Shown here one piece after another: positions 6,774-24,350 of a DNA stretch of 56,855 nt (position 1 is the first letter of the stretch; every line of letters starts with the position of its first letter). The notes under the pieces were generated by a model that saw nothing but the letters and a program-made list of their open reading frames with translations, searched no databases and was not told the DNA's origin. Position numbers and translations under genes: made by a program. Source of the DNA: Micrococcales bacterium (GTDB lineage Bacteria; Actinomycetota; Actinomycetes; Actinomycetales; WQXJ01); NCBI GenBank assembly GCA_009784895.1, contig WQXJ01000007.1, forward strand, positions 1 through 56,855, read 5' to 3'.

Positions 6774-6789
6774 GTTACAGGTCGGTAAC
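6774..6789. promoter_or_regulatory. Inverted repeat upstream of the sugar operon
   Basis: GTTAC and GTAAC form perfect 5-bp arms around a 6-bp spacer, about 75-90 bp upstream of the binding-protein gene. AT-rich sequence follows at 6818-6833 (CATACTTATTACTTGA), where a -10 box could lie. Candidate operator for the ROK repressor encoded at 14003, unproven. Confidence 0.35.
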
Positions 6790-6864
6790 TATCGTTGCGA
6801 CTAGTTTGGCGTAGCGTCATACTTATTACTTGACCCAGAGTTCACCAACAGTGAGGAGATGCTG

Positions 6865-8139
6865 GTGTCGAAGTCTCGCAAGGCTCTAGTTTTGGGCGTG
6901 ACCGCCGCCCTGGCCCTAACAGTGGCCGCCTGCGGTTCGGACAACAAGTCAGGGGAGGGTGCCGGCTCGTTAACCATTGCGCTGACATCCAGTCCATCAG
7001 CAACGGCGCTGGAGGCCCTGGCCAAGGATTTCGAGAAGGAAACCGGGATCAAAGTCAGCGTTGTTCAGCTGACCTATGACCAGATCTCGACCAAGATCCT
7101 GTTGGCGGCCGGCCAGCCGGACGCCGCCTATGACGTGGTTCAGTTCGACTCGCCCATGTATCCGGCTTTGGTTTCCGGTGAGGCGCTGGCGGATCTAAGT
7201 GGTCACGTCAAAGGGTCGGACAAGTACGACTACGCCGATTTCCCAGATCAAGTCCAGCAATACGCCATGTTTGGCGAGGACATCAAGTCGATCCCGCTTT
7301 CGACCGAACCGTATGTCTTGTGGAGTAACTCCGATCTGCTGGCGGCTTCTGGTTTGGAGCCGGCCGACACGCTCGACGAGTATGTCGCCAACGCCAAGGC
7401 TTTCACCGAGGCCGGCGCCTATGGATCCGACAACGCCTTTGGCGCTCAGGAGAGCGCCTACTACTGGCTCCAGGCCGTCTACATGTTTGGTGGCCAAATC
7501 ACCAAGCCCGGTACCTGCGAGTCAGCCTTAGACAGCCCGGAAGTCGAGGCTGCCACCAAGTTCTACTTCGACATGCAGGCGACCACGCCGGCCATGACGC
7601 TGAACGGTGGCGGTAACGAAATGACCAGTGCCTTCATCCAGGGGGATGTGGGCCAAATGGTCAACGCCACCGGCTATTGGTCAATCGTGGCGGATCCAGA
7701 CCAGTCCAACATTCCCGAGTCGTTTGTCATGACCCTGCCACCGGCCGGGGATAACGGACGCCACACTTTGGTTTTCGGTTGGCTTATCGGCATCACCGCT
7801 AATTCCGCCGCCCAAGATCAGGCCTGGCAGTTCCTTGAGTTTGCCTTGGGTAAGGATTCGATGGACAAGCTGATCGAGCTGGGGGCACCGCCGCCGGCCA
7901 GGACATCGCTGGTGACCTCGCCTAACGCCCAAGAAGCCATCCCATATGTTGACCTTCTGGTAGAGGCCTCGTCCTACGGCGCGCATCTGCCTTACACCCC
8001 GGTGATGAACGAAATCATTACTGAGGTTTCGGCCGCCATCTCGGCGGCGGCCACAGACGGCTCCGGGGCGGACGGGTTCCTGCCCAAAGCCCGCGAAATG
8101 GTGGCCTCAATCTTGAGTGATGCGGACGTCTGTCTGTAA
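6865..8139 (+). CDS. Sugar ABC transporter substrate-binding lipoprotein (set 1)
   Basis: About 424 residues, an extracytoplasmic solute-binding protein of the UgpB/MalE (CUT1) type. A short basic N terminus and hydrophobic stretch end in a lipobox (LTVAAC), so Cys23 should be lipidated and anchor the protein to the outer face of the membrane. Later segments such as DYVANAKAFTE-like and FIQGDVGQMVNATGYW are typical of the family. I prefer the GTG at 6865, which has GAGGAG six bases upstream; the ATG at 6859 would touch that ribosome site directly. The stop overlaps the next gene (TAATG), so it is coupled to the permeases. The ligand is unknown; the neighbours suggest a substituted or amino sugar, or an oligosaccharide. 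Confidence 0.92.
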   Translation: MSKSRKALVLGVTAALALTVAACGSDNKSGEGAGSLTIALTSSPSATALEALAKDFEKETGIKVSVVQLTYDQISTKILLAAGQPDAAYDVVQFDSPMYPALVSGEALADLSGHVKGSDKYDYADFPDQVQQYAMFGEDIKSIPLSTEPYVLWSNSDLLAASGLEPADTLDEYVANAKAFTEAGAYGSDNAFGAQESAYYWLQAVYMFGGQITKPGTCESALDSPEVEAATKFYFDMQATTPAMTLNGGGNEMTSAFIQGDVGQMVNATGYWSIVADPDQSNIPESFVMTLPPAGDNGRHTLVFGWLIGITANSAAQDQAWQFLEFALGKDSMDKLIELGAPPPARTSLVTSPNAQEAIPYVDLLVEASSYGAHLPYTPVMNEIITEVSAAISAAATDGSGADGFLPKAREMVASILSDADVCL

Positions 8140-9059
8140 TGAGCGAGACTGGGCTGGTGGCGACGGGCTCAGCCCGTCGCCACCGCCGCGGTAAGCTGTC
8201 GCGCCGCCGGCGCGCTACCGGGCTTGCCTTTCTGTCGCCAGCACTAGCCCTATTGCTGGCGATTATGGCCATCCCAATGGGGCTTGGCCTCTACCAATCA
8301 CTAACCAACGAATCACTGGTCCGGCGGGGCCAGACCAAGTTCATCGGGCTAGAGAACTACGCCGACCGAGTCATCGCCCCCGGTTTCGCCAGCGCCGCCC
8401 TGGTGACGGCCATAATCATGGTGTTGAGCCTGGCGGTACAGCTGCCGATTGGCTATTGGCTGGCGCTCTGCCTGTCCAGGCGGATCGGCGCCAGTTCGGT
8501 CTTCAGGACCATCTTGACTTTGCCAATGATGTTGACCCCGGTGGCAGTCGGTCTGATGTGGCGGTTCCTGGCTGACCCAGATTTGGGAATCATCCGGTGG
8601 ATCGCCTCGACCATGGATTCTGCGGCCCATCCCAACGTTTTCGGTTCGCGTGTTTCCGCCACCATCTTGATAGTGGTGGTCAACTCTTGGATCAATATCC
8701 CCTTGGTCACACTGCTGTTGTTGGCCGGGCTGTTGGGTGTGCCAGACGAACTCTATGAAGCCGCCGCCATTGACGGTGCCAACCGCTGGCAGACCCGCTG
8801 GCACATCACAATTCCCTCCATCACGCCGGTAATCGCGGTGGTCTGTGTTTTGCGACTGGCCGGAGATTACTGCATGTTTGACCTGGTCTACACCATTACC
8901 CACGGTGGGCCAGGTACCTCGACCCGGAACCTGTCAATGCTGGCCTACCAGGAGGGTCTGGTCAACTACTCGATTGGACGGGCCACAGCCATTGCCATGA
9001 CCATGGCCATTTTGGCCCTGCCGGCCTACCTGGCCTTTAGGAAGGTGTCACGGGCATGA
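8139..9059 (+). CDS. Sugar ABC transporter permease, MalF type (set 1)
   Basis: A 306-residue inner-membrane protein with about six membrane spans, of the binding-protein-dependent permease superfamily. The cytoplasmic EAA loop, which docks the ATPase, is present as YEAAAIDGANRWQTRWHITI near residues 206-226. The N terminus is unusually rich in Arg and His before the first span, in keeping with the positive-inside rule. Its ATG shares one base with the stop of the preceding lipoprotein gene, and its own end overlaps the next permease by 4 bp. With the neighbouring permease it forms the translocation channel. No ATPase gene is present in the cluster, so a shared MsiK-like ATPase elsewhere probably energises it. 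Confidence 0.93.
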   Translation: MSETGLVATGSARRHRRGKLSRRRRATGLAFLSPALALLLAIMAIPMGLGLYQSLTNESLVRRGQTKFIGLENYADRVIAPGFASAALVTAIIMVLSLAVQLPIGYWLALCLSRRIGASSVFRTILTLPMMLTPVAVGLMWRFLADPDLGIIRWIASTMDSAAHPNVFGSRVSATILIVVVNSWINIPLVTLLLLAGLLGVPDELYEAAAIDGANRWQTRWHITIPSITPVIAVVCVLRLAGDYCMFDLVYTITHGGPGTSTRNLSMLAYQEGLVNYSIGRATAIAMTMAILALPAYLAFRKVSRA

Positions 9060-9889
9060 AACTGCGCCAGAGCCTGCCAAGGCGCGCCGGCTGGTGGCTG
9101 GTGATGTGCGGAGCGGCCGCCATGACCTTATGGCCGGTGCTGTGGACCATCTCGACCTCCTTCAAGTCCCAAAAAGAGACCTACCAGTTCCCGCCCACGA
9201 TCTGGCCTGAAGACGTCCGGTTGTCCAACTACACCAGGCTGTTTGAGTCGACTGACTTCAGATCGGCTTTGGTGACCTCAGTGGTGGTCACCGTGGGCGT
9301 GACAATACTGGTCCTGGTGATCGCCTACCCCTGTGCCTATGCCCTGGTCAGGATGCGGGCCTGGGGCTCGCGCCTAGTGCTGCTGCTAGTGGCCTTCGCC
9401 CAGACTGTACCGGCCATCGTGGTGCTGATTCCGCTCTACTCGATCAGCGTCAGGCTTCACCTTTACGACACCAGGACCGTCCTGATCTTGGTCTACACGG
9501 CCTTCCTGATTCCGTTCTCGACCCTGATTCTGATGGCCTTCCTGCGGGCCGTACCTACCGAGATTGAAGAAGCCGCCCTGGTAGACGGTTGTAGCCACGT
9601 CAGAGTGTTGACCCGGATAGTGCTGCCCATGACCCGGCCAGCCATCGCCACAGCGGCCGTCTTCACCGGCCTATTCGCTTGGAACGAGTTCCTCATCGCG
9701 GCCGTCCTGGGGGGCGACAAAGCCCGGCCGCTAACGGTCATGATCTCCCAGTTCGTATCGCAAAAAACCATTGAGTGGGGCCCAATGACCGCTGCCGTCT
9801 GCTTGGTGCTACTGCCGGTGGTAGTAGCCGTGGTCCTGCTGCAACGACATCTTGTCTCCGGCCTGGTGGCCGGAGCGCTGAAAGCCTAA
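9056..9889 (+). CDS. Sugar ABC transporter permease, MalG type (set 1)
   Basis: A 277-residue membrane protein with six predicted spans, the second half of the permease pair. The EAA loop reads EIEEAALVDGCSHVRVLTRI near residues 165-185. It begins inside the last codons of the MalF-type permease (ATGA overlap), which supports equimolar production. The C-terminal LVAGALKA ending is typical of MalG-type proteins. It functions with the upstream permease and binding protein to import a carbohydrate. Substrate not predictable from the sequence alone. Confidence 0.93.
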   Translation: MKLRQSLPRRAGWWLVMCGAAAMTLWPVLWTISTSFKSQKETYQFPPTIWPEDVRLSNYTRLFESTDFRSALVTSVVVTVGVTILVLVIAYPCAYALVRMRAWGSRLVLLLVAFAQTVPAIVVLIPLYSISVRLHLYDTRTVLILVYTAFLIPFSTLILMAFLRAVPTEIEEAALVDGCSHVRVLTRIVLPMTRPAIATAAVFTGLFAWNEFLIAAVLGGDKARPLTVMISQFVSQKTIEWGPMTAAVCLVLLPVVVAVVLLQRHLVSGLVAGALKA

Positions 9890-9918
9890 TAGGCCCAACA
9901 ACGCAAGGAGAAGTGGAC

Positions 9919-10920
9919 ATGAACCAACACAAGACCCAGGTGGCGATCATTGGCGCCGGCATCATGGGGGAGTTCTACGCCGGGACTTTACGGCAGTCCA
10001 ATTTGCGGTTTAGGACTGACCTAGTGGCGGTCTGCGACATTGATGCCTCCCGCGCCGCCGCCGTGGCCGGGGACGAGGCCACGGCCTACACCGATGTTTC
10101 TCAGATGCTGGCCAACGAGACCCTCGACTGGGTCTACCTGGCAACGCCTGATTTCGCCCACCGGGAACCGTTTGAGGCCTGTATGGCGGCCGGGGTTCCA
10201 TGCCTGGTTGAAAAGCCACTGGCGACAACGCTCGAGGATGCCAGGGCCATGCAGGCGGCGGCGCAGCGGGCCGGGGTGCAGGTTGAGGTCAACTTCTCTA
10301 ACCACATCAACCCGGCCTATGCCGCAGCCAAGACGGCCATCGAGGCTGGCGAAATAGGCCAGCCGCTAGGGGTCTATGCCCGGCTGTCGAACGTTTTCAC
10401 CTACCCCTTGAACAACCTCAGTTGGGCCCAAAAGTCCTCAGTTGCCTGGTTCCTGATTAGCCACACAGCCGACCTGGCGGCTTGGCTAACTGATTGGCAG
10501 GCCACATCAGTTCTAGCTCGCGGCTCAAAGGGTCGTCTAGCCGCCTTAGGCCTGGATACCTACGACCTGATCCAGTGTTTGGTGACCTACTCCGGCGGGC
10601 GCTCGGCCATTTTCGAGGCCTCATGGACGCTGCCGGAGTCGATGCCATCACTGGTCGACATGGCCTATGTGATTCACGGTGACGCTGGCCAAATCGCCAT
10701 TGACACCACTCGCCAAATGGTGACAGTGGCCGGCCCAGGCGGTTATGTCTACCCCGGCACGCTTGATTGGGACCAGCAGTGTATTACCGATTGCCTCGAG
10801 CGCCTGGACCAGCCCACCCCGGCCGAGCCGTTAGCTGAAGGGCTGGCCAACACCGCGCTGGTGGTGGCCCTGCACCGTTCACTGCAAAGTGGCCAAGTCG
10901 AAACCATCGAGGCGGGTTAG
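9919..10920 (+). CDS. Gfo/Idh/MocA family oxidoreductase 1
   Basis: A 333-residue NAD(P)-dependent oxidoreductase. The N-terminal Rossmann fold begins at once with VAIIGAGIMGEFYAG, and the family hallmark EKPLATT occurs near residue 96. The C-terminal alpha/beta domain contains WFLISHTAD, which probably bears the catalytic His and Asp. These enzymes oxidise or reduce hydroxyl groups of sugars, inositols or sugar acids, often at C3. The ATG at 9919 has AAGGAG upstream and fits the family start; longer readings would run into the permease gene. A clearly related paralogue lies at 15230 in the same island and shares PDFAH and EKPLATT, so the two may act as an oxidase/reductase pair. That pairing is inference. 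Confidence 0.9.
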   Translation: MNQHKTQVAIIGAGIMGEFYAGTLRQSNLRFRTDLVAVCDIDASRAAAVAGDEATAYTDVSQMLANETLDWVYLATPDFAHREPFEACMAAGVPCLVEKPLATTLEDARAMQAAAQRAGVQVEVNFSNHINPAYAAAKTAIEAGEIGQPLGVYARLSNVFTYPLNNLSWAQKSSVAWFLISHTADLAAWLTDWQATSVLARGSKGRLAALGLDTYDLIQCLVTYSGGRSAIFEASWTLPESMPSLVDMAYVIHGDAGQIAIDTTRQMVTVAGPGGYVYPGTLDWDQQCITDCLERLDQPTPAEPLAEGLANTALVVALHRSLQSGQVETIEAG

Positions 10921-10939
10921 GCGGGGGAGGACCAAGCCA

Positions 10940-11659
10940 ATGGCGGAAGCAGAGGCGCTAGCGGGGCTGATGGATCAATGGTCCAGCCAGCTACTGGCAC
11001 CCGCCCAGCAGGTGGTGTCAAACGACCGCCTGGCCATAGCCCGGGCCGCCCTTGCCATCGCCAGCCACCTCGACCCCCAGGGCCGTCTGATGTGCTTTGG
11101 CGCTGGCCACTCCTGGTGCCTGGCGGCTGAGCTTTGCTCCAGAGCCGGTGGCCTGCCCGGAGTAGTGGCAATGAGCCTGGCCGATCTGGGCCCAAAGCGC
11201 GACCAATGGCGCCAATTGGCGGATTCAGGCCCCGAACGCCAGGTCGAACTGGCCCAGCCAATGATCGACCACCACCGGCTGACCAGCCGAGACGTGCTGC
11301 TGGTGATATCAAACTCGGGGCGCAATTCAATGGTGATCGAATTGGCTCGGCTGGCTAGGGCCATGGGCTGCCTGGTGGTGTGCGTGGTCTCGCTGGCGCA
11401 CGCCAATTCGATCAAGTCACGCCACCCCAGCGGCCAGATGCTAATGGATCACGCCGACATTGTTCTAGACAACCATGGATCGCCAGGGGACGCCGGAGTT
11501 GAGGTGGCACCAGGCGTAGTGTCGGGTGCCACCTCAACTATCGCCGGTTCCTTGACCCTTCAATTGCTGGCCTGCTGCCTGGCCTACCACTTCAGCCAGA
11601 GCGAAAGTGGTTTTGCCACCATTCGCAGCGCCAATCTCGATTGTGAGGCGAGCCAATGA
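10940..11659 (+). CDS. SIS-domain phosphosugar-binding protein (COG4821-like)
   Basis: A 239-residue single SIS-domain protein. The phosphosugar-binding loops are visible as GAGHSWCLAAELCSRAGG near residues 54-71 and VISNSGRNSMVIELA near residues 121-135. Proteins of this size and organisation belong to the uncharacterised sugar-isomerase-domain family rather than to GlmS or GmhA. It probably isomerises, eliminates or senses a phosphorylated (amino)sugar in the cytoplasm. The ATG at 10940 follows GGGGGAGGACC. The stop overlaps the next gene, a ROK kinase, by 4 bp, so kinase and isomerase are made together. MurQ-like etherase activity is an alternative, but that enzyme is longer. Confidence 0.82.
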   Translation: MAEAEALAGLMDQWSSQLLAPAQQVVSNDRLAIARAALAIASHLDPQGRLMCFGAGHSWCLAAELCSRAGGLPGVVAMSLADLGPKRDQWRQLADSGPERQVELAQPMIDHHRLTSRDVLLVISNSGRNSMVIELARLARAMGCLVVCVVSLAHANSIKSRHPSGQMLMDHADIVLDNHGSPGDAGVEVAPGVVSGATSTIAGSLTLQLLACCLAYHFSQSESGFATIRSANLDCEASQ

Positions 11660-12615
11660 AAACAATCGGAACAGTCGATCTAGGTGGCACCTTCCTCAGG
11701 ACCGGTTGGTGGCGTCAGGACGCCTGGTTGATGACCCATGCCGAGCGGACCTGCACCAACGACGGTCAAGACGCGCTGACCAGCCAGATCATCCGGGCGG
11801 TCGAGGCCGGGCCGGACATCAGCGGCCTGGTAGTGGCCACCGCTGGTGGCCTGTCAACGGTCACCGGTCATATTCACCATGCTGCCAACCTGCCACTTGA
11901 CAACCTTGATCTGCGTGAGACCTTGGGCCAGCGGCTGGGGGTTCCGGTGGCGGTGCTGGGTGACGCGGCCGCCGGCACTGTGGCTGAGTTTGGCGCCGGC
12001 GCCGCCAAGGGCCTGTCCCACGGCGCCTTTTTGACCATTTCGACCGGCATCGGCATGGGTCTGGTCATCAACGGCAGGCTGGTCAGCGGCTTGAACCACC
12101 AGGCAGGGGAGCTTGGCCACATCCCGGTGGACACCTCGGCTGAAGCCCCTCAATGTCCCTGTGGTCAAAGTGGCTGCCTTGAGGCCTTCGCCTCCGGCAA
12201 CGGGCTGGTAGCGCGTTTTTGCGCCGATGGAGGTGCCACAGGCAGCCCGGTACCTGACGGACGGGCTGTGGTCGAGTTGGCGGAAAGAGGCCACCGGGGT
12301 GCCACCGTGGTAGTCAACCAGGGCGGGCAATTGCTTGGCGCGGCTTTGGCCATGTTGATACGGCTTTTGTCGCCACAGGTTTTGGTGCTAGGTGGCGGTT
12401 TAGCCAAGTCTCGTTACTACATCGGTTTGGCCACAACCTGGCTAGAGCGGATTCTGGCCCAGTCTCTACCCGGCTCCAGCCGGTTGATCTGCACCGGAAC
12501 CTGTGAACCGTCGAACCCATTAGTGGGCGCGGCTTTGGCCGGCGCCGGTGACCTGGCCGCGAGGCGGTTGCTAAAAGGCACCGGTTATGAAGAGCAATTG
12601 GAGGCATTGTGGTAG
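11656..12615 (+). CDS. ROK-family sugar kinase
   Basis: A 319-residue ROK kinase. The ATP phosphate-binding motif DLGGTFLRTG opens the protein, GDAAAGTVAEFGAGAAKG covers the interdomain part, and the zinc-binding signature of the family is intact (GELGHIPVD then CPCGQSGCLE near residues 173-183). Such kinases phosphorylate glucose, N-acetylglucosamine, N-acetylmannosamine or allose. No helix-turn-helix is present, unlike the regulator at 14003, so this is the enzyme. It overlaps the SIS gene upstream (ATGA) and the ceramidase-like gene downstream, placing it in the middle of a coupled catabolic operon. Substrate specificity is uncertain; an amino sugar is my favoured guess from the hydrolase next door. 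Confidence 0.9.
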   Translation: MKTIGTVDLGGTFLRTGWWRQDAWLMTHAERTCTNDGQDALTSQIIRAVEAGPDISGLVVATAGGLSTVTGHIHHAANLPLDNLDLRETLGQRLGVPVAVLGDAAAGTVAEFGAGAAKGLSHGAFLTISTGIGMGLVINGRLVSGLNHQAGELGHIPVDTSAEAPQCPCGQSGCLEAFASGNGLVARFCADGGATGSPVPDGRAVVELAERGHRGATVVVNQGGQLLGAALAMLIRLLSPQVLVLGGGLAKSRYYIGLATTWLERILAQSLPGSSRLICTGTCEPSNPLVGAALAGAGDLAARRLLKGTGYEEQLEALW

Positions 12616-14006
12616 TTAACGGCACAACCGATCAGCCACCTGGCATTTTTATGGTCGGCACTGCGACCCGTAACCTCGACTTCGCCGCCGGCCTGGCCAT
12701 GGCCGGCTACGCCCGGCGCCATGGACCCAGCCAGGGCACCTTGGAGCCACTGCAGGCCAGGGCCTTGGCCGTGGCCGACCCGCATGGCAATCGGGTCGCC
12801 TTGGTGGCACTGGACCTGGTCTATGTGACCAGGGCGATCGCACAGGCGGTCGAGGAACGACTGGCTCGCAGCGTCGGTCTGCCACATCAAGCCCTGGCGA
12901 TTAGCGCCACCCACACCCACTCCGGGCCTGATGTTGGCAACCCTGACGATCCCGCCGGCCAGATGGTGGTTGAAACCGCCGCTGAGGCGGTCCAAGCAGC
13001 GCTGGGGTCAATGGCGCCGGCCGAGCTGTGGAGTGATGCTGTTGGCGTTGAGGCCCTTGGCATGAACCGTCGCAACGGCACGGCCCCACCCTTGTCCGCC
13101 CACGTCATCGTGGCCACTAGGCCCGGCCGGCCCGGCGATGTCATGGCCACTCTGCTTGAATTCGCCTGCCATGCCACCATCTTGGAGCACGACAATGTCC
13201 GCTACTCGCCGGATTACCCCGGCCATGCCCGCCGACTGATCGAGCAGTTGGTCGGTGGGACCTGCGTTTTTGTCCAAGGGTGTTCCGGCGACATCAATCC
13301 GGTATTTGATTCCCACCAGCCTTCTGGGGCCCACCTGGCTGGCGCACTGCTGGCCGGCACGGTTGGCACCAGCCTGCTGCGCTCATTGCGTCACCAGGCT
13401 GGCGCCAAATACGTCAATCTGACCTGGAACGGCGACTACCCGGTAACAACAGTGTCGACATTGCGACCGGTGCCGGCCGGTCGAGTCTGGGCAGCCCAGG
13501 GGGACACCGTCGTTGATTTGGCCGCGCTAGCCGACCCGGCGGCGGCAGCGGCCCGGCTGGCGGCGGCCCGTCAAGCTTTCAAGGCGGGCCAAAACGGACC
13601 CGACCATCATGCCTTGGGCGCCGAGCTAGGCGAGGCCTGGGCACAGGACCTGCGCGCCAGCGGATACATGGACGCGGTCCCAGCCGACCCGCCCACCCAA
13701 CCAACCAATCTGACCAGCCGGGTCCTGGGCTTGGGCCCGGCCGCCGCCATCTGCGCCTTACCTGGCGAGGTCTTTTGGACCACCGGCCAGGACCTGCGAC
13801 AGCGTCTAGAAGCGCCACCGCATTTGCTCCTGGCGACCTGCGCTAACCAGGCCGTCGGTTACCTGCCGCCGGTCCATGAGTTTGCCGAAAAAGGCTACGA
13901 GATTGGTGAAGCCGGCTTGGCCAAAGGCGCGGCCGAGGCCGTAGTCGAGACCACAGCTGGTCTGCTGGCCGGAGGTGGACCCCCTGGGGTCCGGGCGGAA
14001 ACGTGA
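12609..14006 (+). CDS. Neutral/alkaline ceramidase-like hydrolase
   Basis: A 465-residue protein resembling the N-terminal zinc-amidase domain of neutral/alkaline non-lysosomal ceramidases. Visible signs are SATHTHSGPD near residues 98-107 and EFACHATIL near 181-189 (zinc ligands), VQGCSGDINPVF near 223-234, and the C-terminal AVGYLPP with a nearby Tyr. It lacks a signal peptide and the immunoglobulin-like tail of secreted ceramidases, so it appears cytoplasmic. The GTG at 12609 overlaps the ROK kinase end and follows TTGGAGG. In a sugar operon it more likely hydrolyses an amide, for example an N-acyl amino sugar, than a lipid. Family assignment is good; the substrate is inference. Confidence 0.82.
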   Translation: MVVNGTTDQPPGIFMVGTATRNLDFAAGLAMAGYARRHGPSQGTLEPLQARALAVADPHGNRVALVALDLVYVTRAIAQAVEERLARSVGLPHQALAISATHTHSGPDVGNPDDPAGQMVVETAAEAVQAALGSMAPAELWSDAVGVEALGMNRRNGTAPPLSAHVIVATRPGRPGDVMATLLEFACHATILEHDNVRYSPDYPGHARRLIEQLVGGTCVFVQGCSGDINPVFDSHQPSGAHLAGALLAGTVGTSLLRSLRHQAGAKYVNLTWNGDYPVTTVSTLRPVPAGRVWAAQGDTVVDLAALADPAAAAARLAAARQAFKAGQNGPDHHALGAELGEAWAQDLRASGYMDAVPADPPTQPTNLTSRVLGLGPAAAICALPGEVFWTTGQDLRQRLEAPPHLLLATCANQAVGYLPPVHEFAEKGYEIGEAGLAKGAAEAVVETTAGLLAGGGPPGVRAET

Positions 14007-15190
14007 ACACTAGTGCCGCAGGCCGGCCGTTCGTTGCCGGGCTGATTACCGTTTCGCAGATGGGCAGCTCGAACCGGGTGGGCCTGCTTTACGCCCTGGC
14101 CGAGCATGGTCCGACCTCACGCTCGGAACTGGCCCGTATGGCTGGCGTGCCGCGCGGGTCAATCGCACCAATCGTGGCCGGTCTAATCAAAGACGGCATT
14201 CTGATCGAGTTGGAGCCAACTGGAGAGACCCCCAAAGTGGGCAAACCATCGCGGCCATTGTGGTTTGGTCCACGGATTGGACACGCCGGCACAGTCAGAA
14301 TCGAAGCTGGCGTGGTCGAATGTGCCCGGGTCGATCAACGGGGCCAGGTCCGCGACTCGGCCCAAGCCGCCTTTGGCCGCGGTGCCACCACCGGCGAACT
14401 TGAGGACCTAGTGTTGAAACTGGCCCAGGAAGTCTTCGACCGGGCCACCGGCCCACTAACCGGTATTGGGCTGGTCTGGCCGGCCGTCTGGGACCGGGAC
14501 ACCGGACGAGTCTTGTCGTGCACGCCCATACCGGCACTCGAAGGATCGCAGCTGGTCGAACGCCTAGAGCAGCAGACTTCGCTTGAGGTCTTTGTCGAAG
14601 ACGACGCCCGGGCGCTGAGTGTGGGCCAACGCTGGTTTGGCCAGGCCCGTAATGACGATTCGTTTGCCGCTGTCCAGATCTCGGCTGGGATAGGCGCCGG
14701 GCTGATCGTGGACGGCCGGTTGTTTTCGATTGACGACCAATTCCCAGAAATCGGACACATGGTGGTGGACGTTTTTGGCGAGCCGTGCCGCTGCGGGCGG
14801 ACCGGCTGTTGGGAAACCATCGCCGGCCTAGGCTGGTTGCGCCAACAAGCCCGCCGCCACGGTCTGGCCAATTGGGCCACTGTCACGCCTGGCTACCTGG
14901 TCACGACCCAAGGCCCCCAAACTAAGAGGCTGCTTGACTCCTATGCCCGCAATATCGGCATCGGCCTGGCCAATATCGCCATTGCCTTTGGCATCAGCCG
15001 CTTCATTCTGCATGGCGAGGTTGTCAGCGGCGGCCCAACACTGCTGGACCAGGTCAGGCGGCACACTGCGGCCCAATGCGCCATGCCCGGGACGGGCCAA
15101 CCGACTATTGATCTGGCCGACTCAACCCACCCGACCGCCCTACTTGGGGCGGCCGCCATGCCACTTGTCCACGCCATCGAACGCGCCTAG
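14003..15190 (+). CDS. ROK-family transcriptional regulator
   Basis: A 395-residue repressor of the NagC/XylR type. An N-terminal winged helix-turn-helix covers about residues 20-70 (GLLYALAEHGPTSRSELARM, then GSIAPIVAGLIKDGIL), followed by a ROK sugar-binding domain with FPEIGHMVVD and the zinc motif CRCGRTGCWE near residues 258-268. The canonical phosphate loop is poorly kept, as expected of a sensor rather than a kinase. The GTG start overlaps the hydrolase stop (GTGA). It is the only regulator in the island, so it probably controls both sugar transport operons in response to their substrate or its phosphate. Targets have not been shown. Confidence 0.9.
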   Translation: MNTSAAGRPFVAGLITVSQMGSSNRVGLLYALAEHGPTSRSELARMAGVPRGSIAPIVAGLIKDGILIELEPTGETPKVGKPSRPLWFGPRIGHAGTVRIEAGVVECARVDQRGQVRDSAQAAFGRGATTGELEDLVLKLAQEVFDRATGPLTGIGLVWPAVWDRDTGRVLSCTPIPALEGSQLVERLEQQTSLEVFVEDDARALSVGQRWFGQARNDDSFAAVQISAGIGAGLIVDGRLFSIDDQFPEIGHMVVDVFGEPCRCGRTGCWETIAGLGWLRQQARRHGLANWATVTPGYLVTTQGPQTKRLLDSYARNIGIGLANIAIAFGISRFILHGEVVSGGPTLLDQVRRHTAAQCAMPGTGQPTIDLADSTHPTALLGAAAMPLVHAIERA

Positions 15191-15229
15191 AGCCCCTGCG
15201 ATGGCAGCCCAATCACAAGGAGAAACGAA

Positions 15230-16264
15230 ATGACCAAGTCACAAGTCCAAATCGGCATAGTCGGGGCTGGCATCTGGGGTGAAAAGCACGCCGAAATCTA
15301 CCAGGCCATGGATGGCTGTGAGGTTGTGGCGGTCTGCGACCGGGAACTAGCCAAAGCCAGCTCCTTGGCCTCAAAGCTTGGTCTCGATTCTGCCTATGGC
15401 GACTACAACGAGCTCTTGCGCCATGGCCGCATCGACGCGGTGGCGATTGTGACGCCAGATTTCGCCCACGCTGATATCGCCGTGGCGGCCGCTGCGGCCG
15501 GCAAGGACATGCTGATCGAAAAGCCATTGGCGACCACTGTCGATGACGTCGCCAGGACGGTCGAGGCCATCACCTCGGCCGGGGTTAGGGCCATGGTTGA
15601 TTTACATAATCGCTGGTCACCGCCGTTCAACACGGCGCATAGTTTGCTTGAATCGGGCCGAATTGGTCAGGCCTATTCGGCCTACTTCCGGCTCAACGAT
15701 ACGCGCTGGGTGGCCACGGACATGCTGCCCTGGGCGGCCCAATCTTCGATTCTTTGGTTCTTGGGCAGCCATTCGATTGACGCCTTGCGCTGGTTTTTCG
15801 ATGACGAGGTAGCTCGCGTCTTTACCGTGGCGCGCAAAGGCCTGCTGGTGGAGGAGGGTGTCGACGCCACCGACGTCTACTTGACCACCTTAGAGTTCAC
15901 AAAAGGCGGGATCGCCCAAATGGAGAACGGCTGGATCACCCCAAACGCCCATCCATGTATCAATGACATCAAATTCACGCTCCAGGGCACCAAAGGCACT
16001 ATCGCCATCGACGCTTCGAACCACAACCTGATCCAATGCTTCACCGATGACGATATGAATGTGCCAGATGTGGTTGTTCACAACTCGGTCTTTGGGCGGC
16101 CAGTTGGATTTGCTTTTGAGTCAATCAGGTCGTTTGTTGAGTGCCTCATTTCCGGCGAGGACTTCAAGGTCAGCCTGCTAGACGCCGCCAATGGCGCTTG
16201 TGCGCTAATCGCGGCGGAGGAATCAGCCGCTAAGCGCCAACCGGTGACAGTCCGCTACCTCTAG
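15230..16264 (+). CDS. Gfo/Idh/MocA family oxidoreductase 2
   Basis: A 344-residue NAD(P)-dependent oxidoreductase with the Rossmann motif IGIVGAGIWGEKHAEIY at the N terminus, the hallmark EKPLATT near residue 95, and WFLGSHSIDALRWF near residues 180-193 where the catalytic residues lie. It is a paralogue of the enzyme at 9919. The ATG follows AAGGAGAAACGAA, a strong ribosome site. It is the last gene of the plus-strand sugar operon and faces the second transporter set, from which a hairpin separates it. A role in oxidising or reducing a sugar hydroxyl is expected of the family; coupling with the first oxidoreductase in a 3-keto-sugar type route is speculative. Confidence 0.9.
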   Translation: MTKSQVQIGIVGAGIWGEKHAEIYQAMDGCEVVAVCDRELAKASSLASKLGLDSAYGDYNELLRHGRIDAVAIVTPDFAHADIAVAAAAAGKDMLIEKPLATTVDDVARTVEAITSAGVRAMVDLHNRWSPPFNTAHSLLESGRIGQAYSAYFRLNDTRWVATDMLPWAAQSSILWFLGSHSIDALRWFFDDEVARVFTVARKGLLVEEGVDATDVYLTTLEFTKGGIAQMENGWITPNAHPCINDIKFTLQGTKGTIAIDASNHNLIQCFTDDDMNVPDVVVHNSVFGRPVGFAFESIRSFVECLISGEDFKVSLLDAANGACALIAAEESAAKRQPVTVRYL

Positions 16265-16269
16265 CCCTC

Positions 16270-16289
16270 GGCGCGCCCCTCAGCGCGCC
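16270..16289. terminator. Hairpin between convergent sugar operons
   Basis: GGCGCGC (16270-16276) and GCGCGCC (16283-16289) form a perfect 7-bp stem with a 6-nt loop, five bases after the oxidoreductase stop and about 40 bases from the end of the opposing permease gene. A bidirectional terminator is likely; there is no T-tract. Confidence 0.55.
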
Positions 16290-16330
16290 AGAGGCGAGCT
16301 TTGGCATAGACCACCCGTTAGGGCCGGCCA

Positions 16331-17170
16331 CTAGCCTTTGACGGCGCCAGAGATAACTCCTTTGATGATGTGGCGCTGCCCTATCAGGTAGAAGGCAATA
16401 ATCGGGATGATGGCGATGACCAGCATGGCCATCAGGCCGCCCAGGTCCTTGGCGCCGTAAGAGCCGGTCATGTACTTCTGAACCGCGATTGGAATGGTCT
16501 GATAGTTCGATCCGATGACCAAGAATGGCAGCAGGTAGTCGTTCCAGATCCACATGGCGTTGAGAATGGCAACGGTGATGGCGGTGGGGCGCAGCACCGG
16601 GAAGATGACTTTGAAGAAAACCTGCCAGGGCGAGGCGCCGTCAACCATGGCGGCCTCTTCGATTTCGATCGGGATCGACCGGATGAAGCCGACAAAGATG
16701 AAGACTGACAGTCCGGCTCCAAACCCGGTGTAGAGGACCACAATGCCGAAGGGATTGTCCAACCGGGTCATATTGGCCACCTTGGACATGGTGAACATGA
16801 CCATTTGGAAGGGCACAATCATCGAGAAGACAAAAAGGTAGTACAGGGTCGAGGTCAGCTTGGATTTGACGCGGGCAATGTACCAGGCGGTCATCGACGT
16901 GACCAGCACAATCACCACTGTTGAAGCAATCGTGATGAAGAACGACCAACCGACCGCGCCAACAAAGTCACTCCGGCCCAAACCGTCAGCGTAATTCGAC
17001 CAGCCAGCAAAAGATTCCCCAGTTGGCAACGAGAACGGGCTGGTGTCAATGTAAACCTTGGACTTGAAGGAGTTCATCAAGATCAAGGCCATCGGTACTA
17101 GGTAAATGATCGAAAGCACCGTCATGCCAATGACGGCCACGACGCGGAAGACGCGCGAGGTCTTTTCCAT
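16331..17170 (-). CDS. Sugar ABC transporter permease, MalG type (set 2)
   Basis: A 279-residue inner-membrane permease with six predicted spans. The EAA loop appears as EIEEAAMVDGASPWQVFFKV near residues 168-188, and the protein ends in VISGAVKG, typical of the MalG branch. It overlaps the upstream permease gene by one base. It is the distal gene of the second transporter set, which converges on the first sugar operon. It belongs to the same superfamily as the set 1 permease but is clearly divergent from it, so the two transporters probably take different substrates. Confidence 0.93.
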   Translation of the reverse strand: MEKTSRVFRVVAVIGMTVLSIIYLVPMALILMNSFKSKVYIDTSPFSLPTGESFAGWSNYADGLGRSDFVGAVGWSFFITIASTVVIVLVTSMTAWYIARVKSKLTSTLYYLFVFSMIVPFQMVMFTMSKVANMTRLDNPFGIVVLYTGFGAGLSVFIFVGFIRSIPIEIEEAAMVDGASPWQVFFKVIFPVLRPTAITVAILNAMWIWNDYLLPFLVIGSNYQTIPIAVQKYMTGSYGAKDLGGLMAMLVIAIIPIIAFYLIGQRHIIKGVISGAVKG

Positions 17171-18024
17171 CAGCCGTCCGCCTCCTTGCTACGTGTGGCT
17201 CGTAGCTGGATGAAGGCGATCAGGGCCACCAGCAGGAAGAACATAACGGCCTTGGCTTGGCCCACACCTGAGAGGTTCTGGTTGTAGAAGGTGTTGAAAA
17301 TGTCCAAGGCTAGACCCTGGGTTCTTGGGCCTGGAGTCAGGGCGAGGTTTTGGTCGAACAGTTTGAAGCAGTTCGACAGGGTCAAGAACGTGCAGATAGT
17401 GATCGAGGGCATCAGCATGGGGATGGTGACGCGGAAGAGGCGGCGCCAGTAGCCGGCCCCGTCAATCTCCGCAGCCTCAATCACATCGCCGGGAATGTTC
17501 TGAATCCCGGCAATGTAGATAACCATCATGTAGCCGATCATCTGCCAGTTGACCAGCAAAACCAGACCCCAGAAGCCGTAGGCCGGCGAGAAGGTCAGGG
17601 GCTTGCCGATGGTGTTGATCAACAGGGCGTTGAGCAAAACCTGCCAGACGTAACCCAGCACAATCCCGCCAATCAAGTTGGGCAGGAAATAGATGGCGCG
17701 GAAAATATTGCGCCCCTTGATGGCTTTGGTCAGGATCGAGGCCAGGGCGAAGGCGAAAACGTTGACCATGATGACCGAGACAACGGTCAACAAGGTTGAA
17801 AACAGTAAGGCGCGCAGGACCGAAGGGGATCCGTTGATATCGGGTTGGAAAGCCTGCTGGTAGTTCCGCAACCCGACCCACTTGCCGTCTGTGACAGTGG
17901 TGAACTGGTTGAACGACAGCCAGAACCCTAAAACAAACGGCACTACGAAGGCCAAGATGAAGGCCAGGGTGGTTGGCAGTGCGAAGAGAGGAAACCACCG
18001 CTTGAGGTAAGACGAAATCTTCAT
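17170..18024 (-). CDS. Sugar ABC transporter permease, MalF type (set 2)
   Basis: A 284-residue membrane protein with six predicted spans. The ATPase-docking loop is DVIEAAEIDGAGYWRRLFRV near residues 183-203. It lies between the binding-protein gene and the MalG-type gene in the usual order. The 80-bp gap to the lipoprotein gene contains GC-rich sequence but no further gene. It forms the import channel together with the neighbouring permease. No ATP-binding subunit is encoded nearby, as for set 1. Confidence 0.93.
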   Translation of the reverse strand: MKISSYLKRWFPLFALPTTLAFILAFVVPFVLGFWLSFNQFTTVTDGKWVGLRNYQQAFQPDINGSPSVLRALLFSTLLTVVSVIMVNVFAFALASILTKAIKGRNIFRAIYFLPNLIGGIVLGYVWQVLLNALLINTIGKPLTFSPAYGFWGLVLLVNWQMIGYMMVIYIAGIQNIPGDVIEAAEIDGAGYWRRLFRVTIPMLMPSITICTFLTLSNCFKLFDQNLALTPGPRTQGLALDIFNTFYNQNLSGVGQAKAVMFFLLVALIAFIQLRATRSKEADG

Positions 18025-18104
18025 GAAAAAAGCTCCAGTTTTGGGGGCTGACTGGCCCGCCGGGGCTGGCTATTTGGCGAACCAGTCAGCCGGGCCGGGG
18101 GCGG

Positions 18105-19454
18105 CTAGCCCTGGCCCATATTGGCAGCCTCCTGCTGCCAGCCGTCGACAACAGTTCTGACGACGGCATCCCAATTGGCTGAACCTTGGGCGTATTGCAG
18201 CAAAGCGTCGCCAAACTGGTTTTTGAAGTTTTGACTTGGGAACAGCTGGAAGACCCAAGGCAAGTTGGTGATGCCCTCCTTGTCCCGCCAGGCCATTATG
18301 TCCTGGGCCAGTGGGTCGGCCGGCGCATCGGCCGCGGTGAAGGTGTCGAACGGGGCGATGAAGCCCAGGTCGTTGGTCACGAACTGTTTGCCCTTGTCAG
18401 AGCTGTAGAGCCACCAAAGGAAGTCGAGCGAGGCCTTCTGTTTGGCCTCGGAGGCATTGACGTTGATGGCCAAGTAGTTTTCTGTGCCAATGCAAATGCC
18501 TTGGCCTTCCTCGCCAGACACCCCGATATACAGGGGCAGGAACTTAACGTCTTCAGCCTTAACTGTGTTGCCCTGGACGCCGTTGATCTGGCCCCAGCCC
18601 CAGTTGCCGTTTTGGACCATGGCACTTTGACCAAGGGCGAATTCCGACATCGAATCGTCGACGGTCTTGGCCCCAAGCTGTTCCTTGGGCGTGGTCGAGT
18701 TGTTCAAGTACAGGTCAAACAGCTTCTTGAAGTCCTCGTTGTAGGAGAACTTGACCTCTGAGGGAACCTCGGTCTTGTCGAGGGCGCCGTCGTCCTTAAA
18801 CTCGTAGTAGAACGGCACATTGGCCAGGTGGGTCTGCCAGCGCCAGTCTTCACCGGTCTGGAGCGAGGTCGAAGAAAAGACGCCTTCGATCCCCAGTTTG
18901 TCCTTGTGTTTGGTCATATCTTCAACGACCTTTTTCAAGGTGGCAAAGTCGGTGATCTCCTCAACCGAGCCGACCGTAGCGGCCTTGTCAGGCAGCGCGA
19001 AGTACTCTTTCATAATGGCGTCGTTGTAGATGATGCCGTAGCCCTCGATGACATAGGCGACGCCGTAGACGCCATCGCCGTCGTGGATGGCCAAAGACTG
19101 GTCTGACAGATGAGCGTAGAGGTCAGAGCCAGAAAGATCGGCCGTGTAAGCCTTGGCGTTTTGGTAGCCGACCGGCCCGTTGACCTGGAAAATGGTCGGG
19201 GCATCAGACTTGGCGATTTCGCTGCGGAAAGTCTGTTCGTAGGTGCCCGAGGCGGCGGTCTCGACCCGGACCGAAACCCCAGTCTCTTTGGTGTACTCGG
19301 CCGCAATTTGCCTGTAAACATCAGCAACTTCAGGCTTGAAGTTGAGGAAATAGACACCGGCAGCGTCACTGCCGCCGCCGTTCCCTGAGCCGCAGGCCGC
19401 CAGGCCGGCGAGTCCTAGGCAAGCCGCCGCGGCGGCAACGATGATTCTCTTCAT
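18105..19454 (-). CDS. Sugar ABC transporter substrate-binding lipoprotein (set 2)
   Basis: A 449-residue extracytoplasmic binding protein of the CUT1 class. The signal peptide MKRIIVAAAAACLG leads to a lipobox (LAGLAAC), with lipidated Cys at about residue 21 followed by a Gly/Ser-rich linker. Downstream, APTIFQVNGP, VYGVAYVIEGYGIIYND and GQSAMVQNGNWGWGQI match the ligand-binding core of such proteins. The ATG at 19454 follows GGAAGAAGGGTCAT. It has little visible similarity to the set 1 binding protein beyond the fold, which points to a different ligand. It begins the second transporter operon, transcribed toward the first. The 197-bp upstream region probably holds its promoter, and no clear operator was recognised there. 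Confidence 0.93.
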   Translation of the reverse strand: MKRIIVAAAAACLGLAGLAACGSGNGGGSDAAGVYFLNFKPEVADVYRQIAAEYTKETGVSVRVETAASGTYEQTFRSEIAKSDAPTIFQVNGPVGYQNAKAYTADLSGSDLYAHLSDQSLAIHDGDGVYGVAYVIEGYGIIYNDAIMKEYFALPDKAATVGSVEEITDFATLKKVVEDMTKHKDKLGIEGVFSSTSLQTGEDWRWQTHLANVPFYYEFKDDGALDKTEVPSEVKFSYNEDFKKLFDLYLNNSTTPKEQLGAKTVDDSMSEFALGQSAMVQNGNWGWGQINGVQGNTVKAEDVKFLPLYIGVSGEEGQGICIGTENYLAINVNASEAKQKASLDFLWWLYSSDKGKQFVTNDLGFIAPFDTFTAADAPADPLAQDIMAWRDKEGITNLPWVFQLFPSQNFKNQFGDALLQYAQGSANWDAVVRTVVDGWQQEAANMGQG

Positions 19455-19651: not shown

Positions 19652-20593
19652 CTAGGAGGAGGCTTGGCCGATGGCGCTGGGCAAGTAGCTAGGCAGCGCC
19701 TGGGTGACAAGCTGTTCGTAGACCAAATCAGGGGCCAAGCAGCGCAGCTCCTCGGCCAGGCATTCGGCGGTTGAACGGCGAGACAGCACCAGATGCTGGC
19801 GATCATGCCCGCTTTGGCGAAGGACAGCCCCGGCTTGGGTGTGTTCCTTGTCCAAGACCAGGTGGCTGCCGCCGCGGAAGTAGAGCTCAATCGAGCTGAT
19901 CGAGCCGGTCAAGCCTGGGGCCCGGCGCACTGTTACGTGCAACGACTGGGCCACCCAAGCGGCCATCAAATCAGCCGCCACCGCGGTTGGGGCGCTGATA
20001 ACCGCACTGGTGACGGTGCCGGCATCGGACTGCGCCAGGGCGCCTGTCAACTGGGCTCGCCAGGGCGACAGCCGAGCCCAGGCCAGGTCGCCGTCACCTG
20101 GGTGATAGGCGGAGGTTAGGGCTTTGAGAGCGGCTTCGCGGTTGGGGGCCTCGCGGGAATCAGTGATGCGCCTAACCGCCATTCGCCCAAGGGCAGAGGT
20201 GGCCGGAACCTCAGGACGTGTGGCCGGCCACCAGACCACCACCGGCAAATCAGGCACCAGTAGCGGCGCCACTATGGCCTCGAGGCTAGTGGCGGCGCGG
20301 CCAATCGCCCTCAAGACGACTATCTCGCCGGAGCCGCCATCTGAGCCAAGGCGGATCTGGGCGTCCAGGGCAGCCGGTTCGTCAGGCGATTCGGTGGTGA
20401 CAACAATGGCCCGGCAGGGGTGTTCCATAGCCGCCACGCGTAGCACTTGGACTGAGCTTTCGAGTTCGCCTGGCTCACACTGGACCACCAAGTTCAAAGC
20501 CCGCGCCTGGGCGGCCACCCCAGCCTGGGCTCGCAATTCGACCAGGCGGGTGGCAACCTGGCTAACCGATGTGGCGTAAATCGGAATGATCAC
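19652..20593 (-). CDS. opcA: Glucose-6-phosphate dehydrogenase assembly protein OpcA
   Basis: A 313-residue protein of the OpcA family, needed in actinobacteria and cyanobacteria for assembly and redox control of glucose-6-phosphate dehydrogenase. Recognisable parts are the central HPCRAIVVT and LPVVVWWPATRP segments and the C-terminal domain with ISSIELYFRGGSHLVLDKE. The GTG at 20593 overlaps the zwf stop (GTGA), so the two are translationally coupled. No Pgl (6-phosphogluconolactonase) gene follows, whereas many relatives carry one here. Identification rests on sequence pattern plus the fixed position after zwf. Confidence 0.93.
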   Translation of the reverse strand: MIIPIYATSVSQVATRLVELRAQAGVAAQARALNLVVQCEPGELESSVQVLRVAAMEHPCRAIVVTTESPDEPAALDAQIRLGSDGGSGEIVVLRAIGRAATSLEAIVAPLLVPDLPVVVWWPATRPEVPATSALGRMAVRRITDSREAPNREAALKALTSAYHPGDGDLAWARLSPWRAQLTGALAQSDAGTVTSAVISAPTAVAADLMAAWVAQSLHVTVRRAPGLTGSISSIELYFRGGSHLVLDKEHTQAGAVLRQSGHDRQHLVLSRRSTAECLAEELRCLAPDLVYEQLVTQALPSYLPSAIGQASS

Positions 20594-22134
20594 GGCCGCC
20601 TCCAGGTTTTGCCGTCCCGGGCCAGCAGCCTATCGGCAGTTTTCGGTCCCCAACTGCCAGCCGGATATCGCGCCGGCGGCTTGTTTGAGGCCTGCCAAGC
20701 CTTCAGGACAGGTTCCACCACCCGCCACGATTCACTGACCTCACTAGATGAGGCCTGGTAGGGCGGGACACCGACCAGCACGTCAAACAGCTCCTGTTCG
20801 AAACCCTCCGGCAGGGCTTCGGCAAAGGTGTAACCATGAGAGAAATCGACTGTCACCGGGCGGACTTGAGTCTGGGTGTTTGGCACTTTGGTGTCGATGC
20901 GCATGGTCACACCCGAATCGGGTCGCATTCGGATAGTCAGGAGGTTGGGTTCCAGTTGGCCGGCTAGGGCCGGTACCGTCTGCGCCCAAGCAGTCGGTTT
21001 CAGTAGCAGGGTGATTTGGGTGATGCGCCGGCCCAGTCGCTTGCCGGTGCGGAGGTAGAAGGGAACGCCCCGCCACCGGTCTGTGTCAACCGCTAGCTTC
21101 AGGGCCGCGTAGGTCTCTGTGGTCGAACCTCCGATCACGCCGGGCTCATCCAAATAGCCCTTGACCTGGATGTTTCCCTGCCACCCGGCAGTGTACTGGC
21201 CGCGCGCGGCGGCTTTTGAGACTGGTCCGGCCAACTCGATTTGGCGCAAGGCGCACTGGCGGGCCGCCCTGACATCAACTGCCGCCATCGAAGCCGGTTG
21301 GTCCATGGCCGTCAAAGCCAGCAGTTGGAACATATGGCCGGTCACTATGTCGCGCAAGGCGCCAAGTTGGTCCCAGTAGCCGGCTCTAGCGCCAATTCCT
21401 TGGTCTTCGCCCATAGTGATTTCGACATGCGAAACGTGGTCTCGGTTCCAGACCGCATCGAAGAGCCGGTTGGCGAAGCGCAGCGCCACAAAGGTCCGGA
21501 CTAATTCGTTGCCTAGGTAGGGGTCCATACGACAGACCTCAGTCTCACAAAAACCCTGATCGATCAGGTAGTTCAGTTGCTTGGATGAGACCAGGTCAAA
21601 GCCGTAGGGACGTTCGACCACTAAGCGGCCACCATGCCCAGGGGCTCCGGCCAAACCAGAATCAAGTAGGCCCTGAACCGCCACCGGGCAGCGGTCCGGT
21701 GGCAGGGCTAAATAGAACAGACGCTGTTGTCTGGTCGAGTGGGCCACATCTGCGGCTTGGAGGGCCAAGGCCAAATCCTTGTAGGTGGCTGGGTTGGCCA
21801 CATCGCCGGAAACATAGTGCAGCCGGGCAGCGAAGTTCTCCCAAACCTGCTGACGGAACGGGGTGCGGGCGCCGCTGGCCACAGCCGCATGGGCCTCGCG
21901 CCGCAGGTCGGCTTCGGACCAGTCCCGGCGGGCTACGCCTACCAGGGCGAAGCCGGCTGGGAGCAGGCCGCGGTTGGCCAGGTCATAGAGTGCGGGCAGA
22001 AGCTTCTTATGCGCCAGATCGCCGCTGGCACCAAACAGGACCATGGCACAAGGCCCGGCCATTGGGGTCAGGCGCGGGTCCCAGGCAAAGCCCAATTGGC
22101 GCTCACTTGGACCTGGCAGGGCGTCCGCGGACAC
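20590..22134 (-). CDS. zwf: Glucose-6-phosphate 1-dehydrogenase
   Basis: A 514-residue NADP-dependent enzyme that starts the oxidative pentose phosphate pathway. The coenzyme-binding motif GASGDLAHKK lies near residues 34-43, the substrate-binding signature is seen as MDPYLGNE, and the C-terminal domain contains FYLRTGKRL. I chose the GTG at 22134, two bases after the tkt stop, because it gives the roughly 25-residue N-terminal lead usual in actinobacteria; a reading from 22290 would overlap tkt by about 150 bp without family support. opcA follows with a 4-bp overlap. Gene order tkt-zwf-opcA lacks the transaldolase gene that normally sits between tkt and zwf. Confidence 0.96.
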   Translation of the reverse strand: MSADALPGPSERQLGFAWDPRLTPMAGPCAMVLFGASGDLAHKKLLPALYDLANRGLLPAGFALVGVARRDWSEADLRREAHAAVASGARTPFRQQVWENFAARLHYVSGDVANPATYKDLALALQAADVAHSTRQQRLFYLALPPDRCPVAVQGLLDSGLAGAPGHGGRLVVERPYGFDLVSSKQLNYLIDQGFCETEVCRMDPYLGNELVRTFVALRFANRLFDAVWNRDHVSHVEITMGEDQGIGARAGYWDQLGALRDIVTGHMFQLLALTAMDQPASMAAVDVRAARQCALRQIELAGPVSKAAARGQYTAGWQGNIQVKGYLDEPGVIGGSTTETYAALKLAVDTDRWRGVPFYLRTGKRLGRRITQITLLLKPTAWAQTVPALAGQLEPNLLTIRMRPDSGVTMRIDTKVPNTQTQVRPVTVDFSHGYTFAEALPEGFEQELFDVLVGVPPYQASSSEVSESWRVVEPVLKAWQASNKPPARYPAGSWGPKTADRLLARDGKTWRRP

Positions 22135-22136
22135 TC

Positions 22137-24197: not shown

Positions 24198-24267
24198 CAG
24201 CTTAGTCGGCGCAAGGAAAGTTGGGTTGGGCGCGCAGCACCTGCCACCCCCTCGCTCGCCAGTCCGA

Positions 24268-24350
24268 GCTTTGGCATCATTGGCTGAACCGCGAGTTTGG
24301 GCTTTGGCATCATTGGCTGAACCGCGAGGTTGGGCTTTGGCATGAAAAGG
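24268..24350. repeat. 33-bp tandem repeat between tkt and xerD
   Basis: Two full copies starting at 24268 and 24301, plus a partial third at 24334, with period 33. The shared core is GCTTTGGCATCATTGG followed by CTGAACCGCGAG; the third copy diverges after GCTTTGGCATGAAAAG. It lies in the 325-bp divergent intergenic region (24198-24522), which contains no supported gene. The core word GAGCTTTGGCAT also occurs at about 16296, and a similar TTTTGGCATGAAA occurs at about 32543. Confidence 0.8.

Follow-up and report, generated by a model that had tools for sequence, protein, structure and literature searches.

The window analysed here is a 56,855-nucleotide stretch of a Micrococcales bacterium (contig WQXJ01000007.1 of assembly GCA_009784895.1, C7 below), from a draft genome of 2.36 Mb that is 96.5% complete. 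Our subject is a plus-strand sugar operon in which a ceramidase-like hydrolase is encoded among genes for sugar import and phosphorylation. Using the list of open reading frames and Pfam/NCBIfam profiles, we found every named gene intact between 6859 and 19454; the gene set proposed by an earlier sequence-only reading, including a plus-strand run that faces a second transporter, is thus confirmed. Nine plus-strand genes (6859-16264) follow one another with overlaps of 1-7 bases or gaps of 19-39 bases, a spacing consistent with a single coupled operon. The run opens with SBP1 (6859-8139; PF01547/PF13416), the sugar-binding protein of a CUT1-type ATP-binding cassette (ABC) importer, and its permeases 1a (8139-9059) and 1b (9056-9889; both PF00528). 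There follow a Gfo/Idh/MocA oxidoreductase (Gfo/Idh 1, 9919-10920; PF01408/PF22725), a SIS-domain protein of the PRK02947/COG4821 subfamily (10940-11659), kin to the N-acetylglucosamine 6-phosphate (GlcNAc-6P) dehydratase NagS and to MurQ, a ROK-family sugar kinase (11656-12615), a predicted zinc hydrolase of the cytosol that has the neutral ceramidase catalytic domain (CER, 12609-14006) and a ROK-family transcriptional repressor with a ROK domain and an N-terminal MarR-like helix-turn-helix (14003-15190). A further oxidoreductase gene, Gfo/Idh 2 (15230-16264; PF01408), ends the run. Two starts were corrected: ATG 9919 is the most likely start of Gfo/Idh 1, with AAGGAG about 8 bases upstream, and ATG 10940 that of the SIS gene.

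Related loci (n = 80) were chosen by CER sequence alone. A scan of genome contigs with the single window CER sequence as query returned no relatives, and an alignment (A1) was required as the query. Two of the loci repeat the arrangement of the window. L016 (Propionibacteriaceae Gx481_bin45) has SBP, permease, permease, Gfo/Idh 1, SIS, ROK kinase, CER and ROK repressor in window order at 42-71% identity (SBP1 65%, permeases 1a and 1b 71% and 69%, Gfo/Idh 1 66%, repressor 61%). L017 keeps the order from Gfo/Idh 1 (55% identical) onward to the repressor (51%), and across the genes shared with both loci the identities to the window are 41-71%. Because the order is repeated in L016 and L017, chance alone does not account for the run. 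Neither locus was found to have Gfo/Idh 2 or the second transporter set; L017 stops about 1.4 kb past the repressor, and the roughly 9 kb of downstream DNA in L016 carries unrelated genes. Judged from gene order, the conserved unit is therefore a predicted core of eight genes, SBP1 through the ROK repressor (6859-15190). In L018 (Actinobacteria 69-20), a repressor, a transporter, SIS, ROK kinase, NagA, CER, two CoA-transferase genes and a Gfo/Idh gene stand consecutively. The NagA of L018, between kinase and CER, is genuine (TIGR00221, 261 bits against a cut-off of 226), and the two CoA-transferase subunit genes (L018 11348-13125) come straight after CER, as though an acid released by CER were converted to a CoA ester.

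CER has 465 amino acids in total and matches PF04734 (Ceramidase_alk) with 52.2 bits against a gathering score of 32.1, the match being confined to residues 26-108. With a profile of 52 CER relatives, the likeness to the Pseudomonas aeruginosa neutral ceramidase PaCD (2zws) covered the whole catalytic domain (E 1.4e-50), and that to human neutral ceramidase likewise ran across the catalytic domain (E 2.2e-42). Ten alignment columns are invariant among the 52 relatives. Seven of the invariant residues (H102, H104, R154, H188, E387, Y418 and Y430) align with PaCD H97, H99, R160, H204, E411, Y448 and Y460, which are known as zinc ligands and catalytic residues. An AlphaFold2 model from the 52-row alignment had a mean pLDDT of 92.3 (a sparse alignment gave a weaker model, mean 70.5) and matched 2zws with Z 37.3 over 381 residues at a root mean square deviation of 2.9. 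The aligned part ends at residue 491 of the 646-residue PaCD chain, so CER is without the C-terminal domain that neutral ceramidase has. An insert after the active-site Arg, present in both ceramidases, is also absent, and no signal peptide is visible by eye at the N-terminus. CER also misses the cut-off of the neutral ceramidase equivalog model NF041649 (26 against 1200 bits). CER is a member of the PF04734-fold superfamily that consists of the catalytic domain only, and by the curated cut-off it is not a neutral ceramidase. That it could still be a true ceramidase in an incidental sugar-gene setting would agree with the fold and the active site, but we hold this to be very improbable given how far the curated cut-off is missed, the lack of both the C-terminal domain and a visible signal peptide, and a sugar neighbourhood that is conserved across several phyla.

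To describe these neighbourhoods, hidden Markov models derived from the window and annotated plasmid operons were run over all 80 CER loci. A PRK02947-type SIS gene lies less than 4 kb from CER in 22 of the 80 loci and at 4-10 kb in none, slightly more DNA having been searched at the greater distance. NagA-like genes show the same pattern (18 loci within 4 kb, 2 at 4-10 kb), as do NagB-like genes (9 and 0). It takes 7 changes to explain SIS linkage on the CER tree, compared with 24.7 when the labels are shuffled. The SIS-linked CERs form three main groups, among which the clade of the window, L016 and L017 has support of 100/100 (97/83 when L018 is added), and their loci span Actinomycetota, Pseudomonadota, Bacillota, Chloroflexota and others. 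The operons on annotated plasmids from Ponticoccus, Devosia, Microvirga, Nitratireductor and Martelella comprise LacI, a NagB-like/6-phosphogluconolactonase protein, SIS, a NagA-like amidohydrolase, CER, a binding protein, permeases and an AGE epimerase-like protein. L059 has NanE, a NagB-II-like protein and a HAD phosphatase near CER. The sequence-only reading had staked its proposal on conserved co-occurrence of the hydrolase with the kinase and oxidoreductases in other genomes; CER does recur with the kinase, SIS and Gfo/Idh 1 elsewhere, and for these three the proposal survives that comparison. COG4821-type SIS genes beside CER can be multiple, with two or three in tandem in L051 (12435-14717) and L049 (12495-13969) and an interleaving with NagA in L056 (11273-14357), possibly reflecting a hetero-oligomer or successive enzymes.

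CER homologues of Agrobacterium, Enterococcus and haloarchaea have other contexts, so that an amino-sugar function cannot be assigned to the superfamily as a whole. On Agrobacterium pAt plasmids, which are conjugative and come from walnut isolates, a CER homologue (L139 8872-10209) adjoins esterase and multicopper oxidase genes, and a tannase gene is close by. This distant homologue beside an esterase gene could be counted towards CER being an esterase or lactonase rather than an amidase, one that strips an O-acyl group or opens a lactone produced by Gfo/Idh 1; ester cleavage is conceivable for such zinc hydrolases, and lactones or keto sugars are often made by Gfo/Idh enzymes. However, characterised members of the ceramidase fold are amidases (ceramidases), N-acetyl-sugar enzymes are the recurrent neighbours in the SIS-linked clade and many SIS-linked loci have no Gfo/Idh gene. 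We consider an esterase or lactonase unlikely.

One locus suggests a different amide. In L074 (587-5598), NagA, CER, SIS, a HAD phosphatase and a genuine MurQ (TIGR00274, 360 bits against a cut-off of 302) form a short run, the only link to muramic acid that we found. Here CER might cleave the lactyl-peptide amide of imported muramyl peptides, with SIS (or MurQ) handling a product of the N-acetylmuramic acid 6-phosphate (MurNAc-6P) type, and the kinship of SIS and MurQ, at low score, would fit such muropeptide salvage. Yet this is a single locus with a CER on a very long branch, and the Aga-type phosphotransferase systems (PTS) of other loci point to a monosaccharide. With 26 bits, the window SIS protein stays far under the MurQ cut-off of 302, and an identification as MurQ was ruled out on that ground. 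No other SIS_2 protein was found in the window genome besides that of the operon, and the genome therefore probably has no MurQ. Taken together, we regard muropeptide salvage as an unlikely explanation for the window operon.

The neighbours of CER and SIS also bear on how the sugar is phosphorylated. PTS genes of the mannose family (mannose/Aga type) occur in eight distinct loci with both SIS and CER (L012/L053, from one genome, L047, L049, L051, L056, L059, L068 and L080), and the fused IIC/IID protein of L080 matches N-acetylgalactosamine and galactosamine transporter models below their cut-offs. L080 also has a weak match to a bacterial microcompartment shell-protein domain, below the cut-off, near its CER/SIS/PTS cluster (1192-1869). 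The window-type ROK kinase stands next to CER and SIS only in the window clade (L016, L017 and L018 besides the window) and never alongside a PTS. PTS and kinase thus look like interchangeable means of phosphorylation, and this argues for a sugar phosphate as the substrate of the later enzymes. In the kinase itself (PF00480, 164 bits), the DLGGT (DxGGT) motif, the catalytic Asp, ExGH and the CxCGxxGCxE zinc motif are all present (alignment A4). It reached no cut-off among the NCBIfam equivalog models. At the catalytic Asp the window enzyme has GD, as have those of L016 and L017, in place of the ND found in many ROK sugar kinases, and its sugar specificity may be unusual for that reason.

The SIS protein falls within the PRK02947 subfamily (NF002805, 181 bits against a cut-off of 135). 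The nine substrate-binding and catalytic residues of NagS (H53, S54, R64, S91, E94, S119, S121, D179 and N228) are all kept, as H74, S75, R85, S113, E116, S141, S143, D201 and N249 in the open reading frame from 10889. True NagS proteins are at least 58.7% identical to one another and linked to dmdR1 (PMC12680351). The best relatives of the window protein in the sampled actinobacterial phylum are 30-40% identical, and its neighbours are Gfo/Idh and the ROK kinase. Moreover, homologues 26-36% identical to NagS show no significant dehydration of GlcNAc-6P (PMC12680351). Identity, neighbourhood and this published inactivity rule out NagS itself, and the inactivity of the distant homologues makes it a fair inference that the SIS protein performs an elimination on some other phosphosugar or an isomerisation. 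In a plasmid record of Listeria monocytogenes (L099 5521-10801), another SIS gene from this subfamily is accompanied by an ascorbate-type PTS, a phosphotriesterase, a creatininase-family protein and a DagF-like aldolase; here too a SIS protein may have an amide hydrolase for a neighbour.

Conservation of the nine residues would allow a more elaborate route, in which SIS dehydrates an N-acetylhexosamine 6-phosphate in the manner of NagS, CER or NagA deacylates the product, ammonia is lost and Gfo/Idh 1 oxidises the resulting 3-deoxy-osone to 2-keto-3-deoxy-6-phosphogluconate (KDPG), which KDPG aldolase would split into pyruvate and glyceraldehyde 3-phosphate. NagS followed by NagA yields an unstable enamine and then an imine, the window genome has a KDPG-type aldolase (PF01081), and aldolases turn up in related settings (DeoC in L051 and L056, the DagF-like protein beside the Listeria SIS gene). 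The aldolase gene of the window genome is, however, on another contig than the operon and so unlinked to it, Gfo/Idh and aldolase are missing from most related clusters, and the tested homologues from outside the Streptomycetaceae have no dehydratase activity. The route seems to us improbable for the window operon.

What the sequence establishes is which parts the operon has, that their order is conserved, that the active sites are intact and that relatives stand in amino-sugar neighbourhoods. Given the SIS, NagA-like and NagB-like neighbours, the loci with Aga-type PTS and the ROK kinase of the window clade, the substrate of the pathway is very probably an N-acylated hexosamine in phosphorylated form, and the best reading of CER is that of a soluble zinc amidase for this compound. 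NagA and NagB are absent from the window operon (6859-16264) and are encoded elsewhere in the genome: NagB scores 266 bits against a cut-off of 237, and a NagA-like gene 204 bits, just below the NagA cut-off of 226 (the two lie on contigs C58 and C24). With moderate confidence, we thus favour a reading in which the operon at 6859-15190 takes up and breaks down an N-acylated amino sugar by ABC import, phosphorylation by the ROK kinase, amide hydrolysis by CER, conversion by SIS and entry into the NagA/NagB trunk.

In mechanistic terms, SBP1 and the permeases would bring the sugar in and the ROK kinase would phosphorylate it. The sugar or its phosphate would carry an amide beyond the reach of an ordinary NagA, such as that of a second or a non-acetyl acyl group, and CER would hydrolyse this amide; the SIS protein, being NagS/MurQ-like, would rearrange the phosphorylated product or carry out an elimination on it. 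Through NagA and NagB, the product would enter the trunk of GlcNAc-6P and glucosamine 6-phosphate. The ROK repressor presumably governs the operon, and Gfo/Idh 1 may carry out some redox step. The class of substrate, the succession of steps and what exactly CER, SIS and Gfo/Idh 1 catalyse are all inferred. The sequence-only reading had likewise supposed that an imported N-acylated sugar is phosphorylated and hydrolysed by a ceramidase-fold amidase. In outline this is supported, by the intact catalytic set of CER and by relatives that stand beside SIS, NagA-like, NagB-like, AGE epimerase, NanE, NagB-II and Aga-type PTS genes; the sugar oxidation that it also supposed is hypothetical.

Several observations weigh against the N-acylated amino sugar reading. 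To our knowledge, there is no enzyme assay for any close relative. Neither NagA nor NagB is encoded in the operon itself, as noted above. Three quarters of the sampled CER loci are without a nearby SIS gene. In the reverse test from SIS to CER, CER lay within 1.5 kb in just 1 of 29 actinobacterial SIS loci, so that the link is loose when seen from the SIS side. The published inactivity of distant NagS homologues belongs here too. Finally, NagA adjoins CER in most SIS-linked relatives, so CER is not simply 'the' deacetylase, and probably not just a second GlcNAc-6P deacetylase either. A role for CER as the missing deacetylase of NagA-less genomes was weakened by the same clusters and by the NagA-like gene elsewhere in the window genome.

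A bolder generalisation would be a widespread pathway for phosphorylated N-acyl hexosamines, handled in turn by a cytosolic ceramidase-fold zinc amidase and a NagS-type SIS protein; NagA would be by-passed or come later, and Gfo/Idh 1 would lead to a 2-keto-3-deoxy acid phosphate. We think it unlikely in this full form; if true, it would assign a function to COG4821 proteins outside Streptomyces as well as to a branch of the ceramidase superfamily that is cytosolic and has a single domain. The presence of an unexpected hydrolase in an amino-sugar gene set, a pairing shared by relatives in several phyla, points to an apparently undescribed step in the breakdown of acylated amino sugars. Neutral ceramidases are known as lipid enzymes; here the ceramidase catalytic domain, its active site intact, turns up repeatedly with N-acetyl-sugar enzymes in the sugar operons of several phyla. 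Proteins now annotated 'neutral/alkaline non-lysosomal ceramidase N-terminal domain-containing protein' thereby gain a concrete functional hypothesis, and the COG4821 SIS proteins, the function of which outside Streptomyces was left open when NagS was described, a physiological setting. A search of the open-access literature, with subscription papers and preprints outside its scope, found no description of an association between CER, SIS and amino sugars. The host is likely, if not proven, to be a termite-gut actinobacterium, since the sample prefix of a relative (Pcl387_bin30, a Bifidobacteriaceae metagenome-assembled genome) is used for a lower-termite gut metagenome.

Facing the operon on the minus strand is the second transporter set, consisting of permease 2b (16331-17170), permease 2a (17170-18024) and the sugar-binding protein SBP2 (18105-19454; PF13416). 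The sequence-only reading had joined both ABC sets and the paired Gfo/Idh enzymes in one pathway; this part is not supported, Gfo/Idh 2 and set 2 being absent from related clusters. Gfo/Idh 2 is 34% identical to Gfo/Idh 1 and, with the second set, probably belongs to a different neighbouring sugar system that merely faces the core operon. Besides the absence of both from L016 and L017, set 2 lies in the lowest G+C stretch of the window (0.558), and an operator shared by the two transporter sets was sought in their two promoter regions, which have no operator-like word in common. On the other hand, Gfo/Idh 2 starts 39 bases past the repressor gene on the same strand and could be co-transcribed with the core in the window genome. 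Beside neither ABC set (6859-9889 and 16331-19454) is there a gene for an ATP-binding protein, and a shared MsiK/UgpC-type ATPase encoded elsewhere would likely serve both importers. Comparison of the sugar-binding proteins with the PDB gave only mixed sugar-binding matches, so we predict no ligand. Directly past the second transporter, a minus-strand run (19652-24515) encodes OpcA, glucose-6-phosphate dehydrogenase and transketolase. Since NagS is inhibited by 6-phosphogluconate according to published work, the adjacency is possibly of interest.

The closest known systems include the canonical nag and aga operons (NagA-NagB, Aga PTS): NagA-like, NagB-like, Aga-type PTS, NanE and AGE epimerase genes recur beside CER and SIS in the relatives, whereas the window operon itself has neither NagA nor NagB. 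We know of no described nag or aga pathway that includes a ceramidase-fold hydrolase or a COG4821 SIS protein. MurQ, the MurNAc-6P etherase, is a distantly related SIS protein that acts on 3-substituted GlcNAc-6P, and the window protein falls far under its cut-off. NagS of Streptomyces (SCO4393, 9eol; PMC12680351) shares the PRK02947 subfamily and the nine conserved residues, but the 30-40% identity of the window protein to the best sampled actinobacterial copies contrasts with the at least 58.7% among true NagS proteins, and the gene neighbourhood differs. Neutral ceramidase (P. aeruginosa PaCD, 2zws/2zxc; human, 4wgk) differs from CER in having the C-terminal domain and the Arg insert, and structural alignments give 18-21% identity to the shorter CER, which has no visible signal peptide and stands in sugar operons. 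The two nevertheless share the same catalytic-domain fold (Z 35-37) and all seven zinc and catalytic residues.

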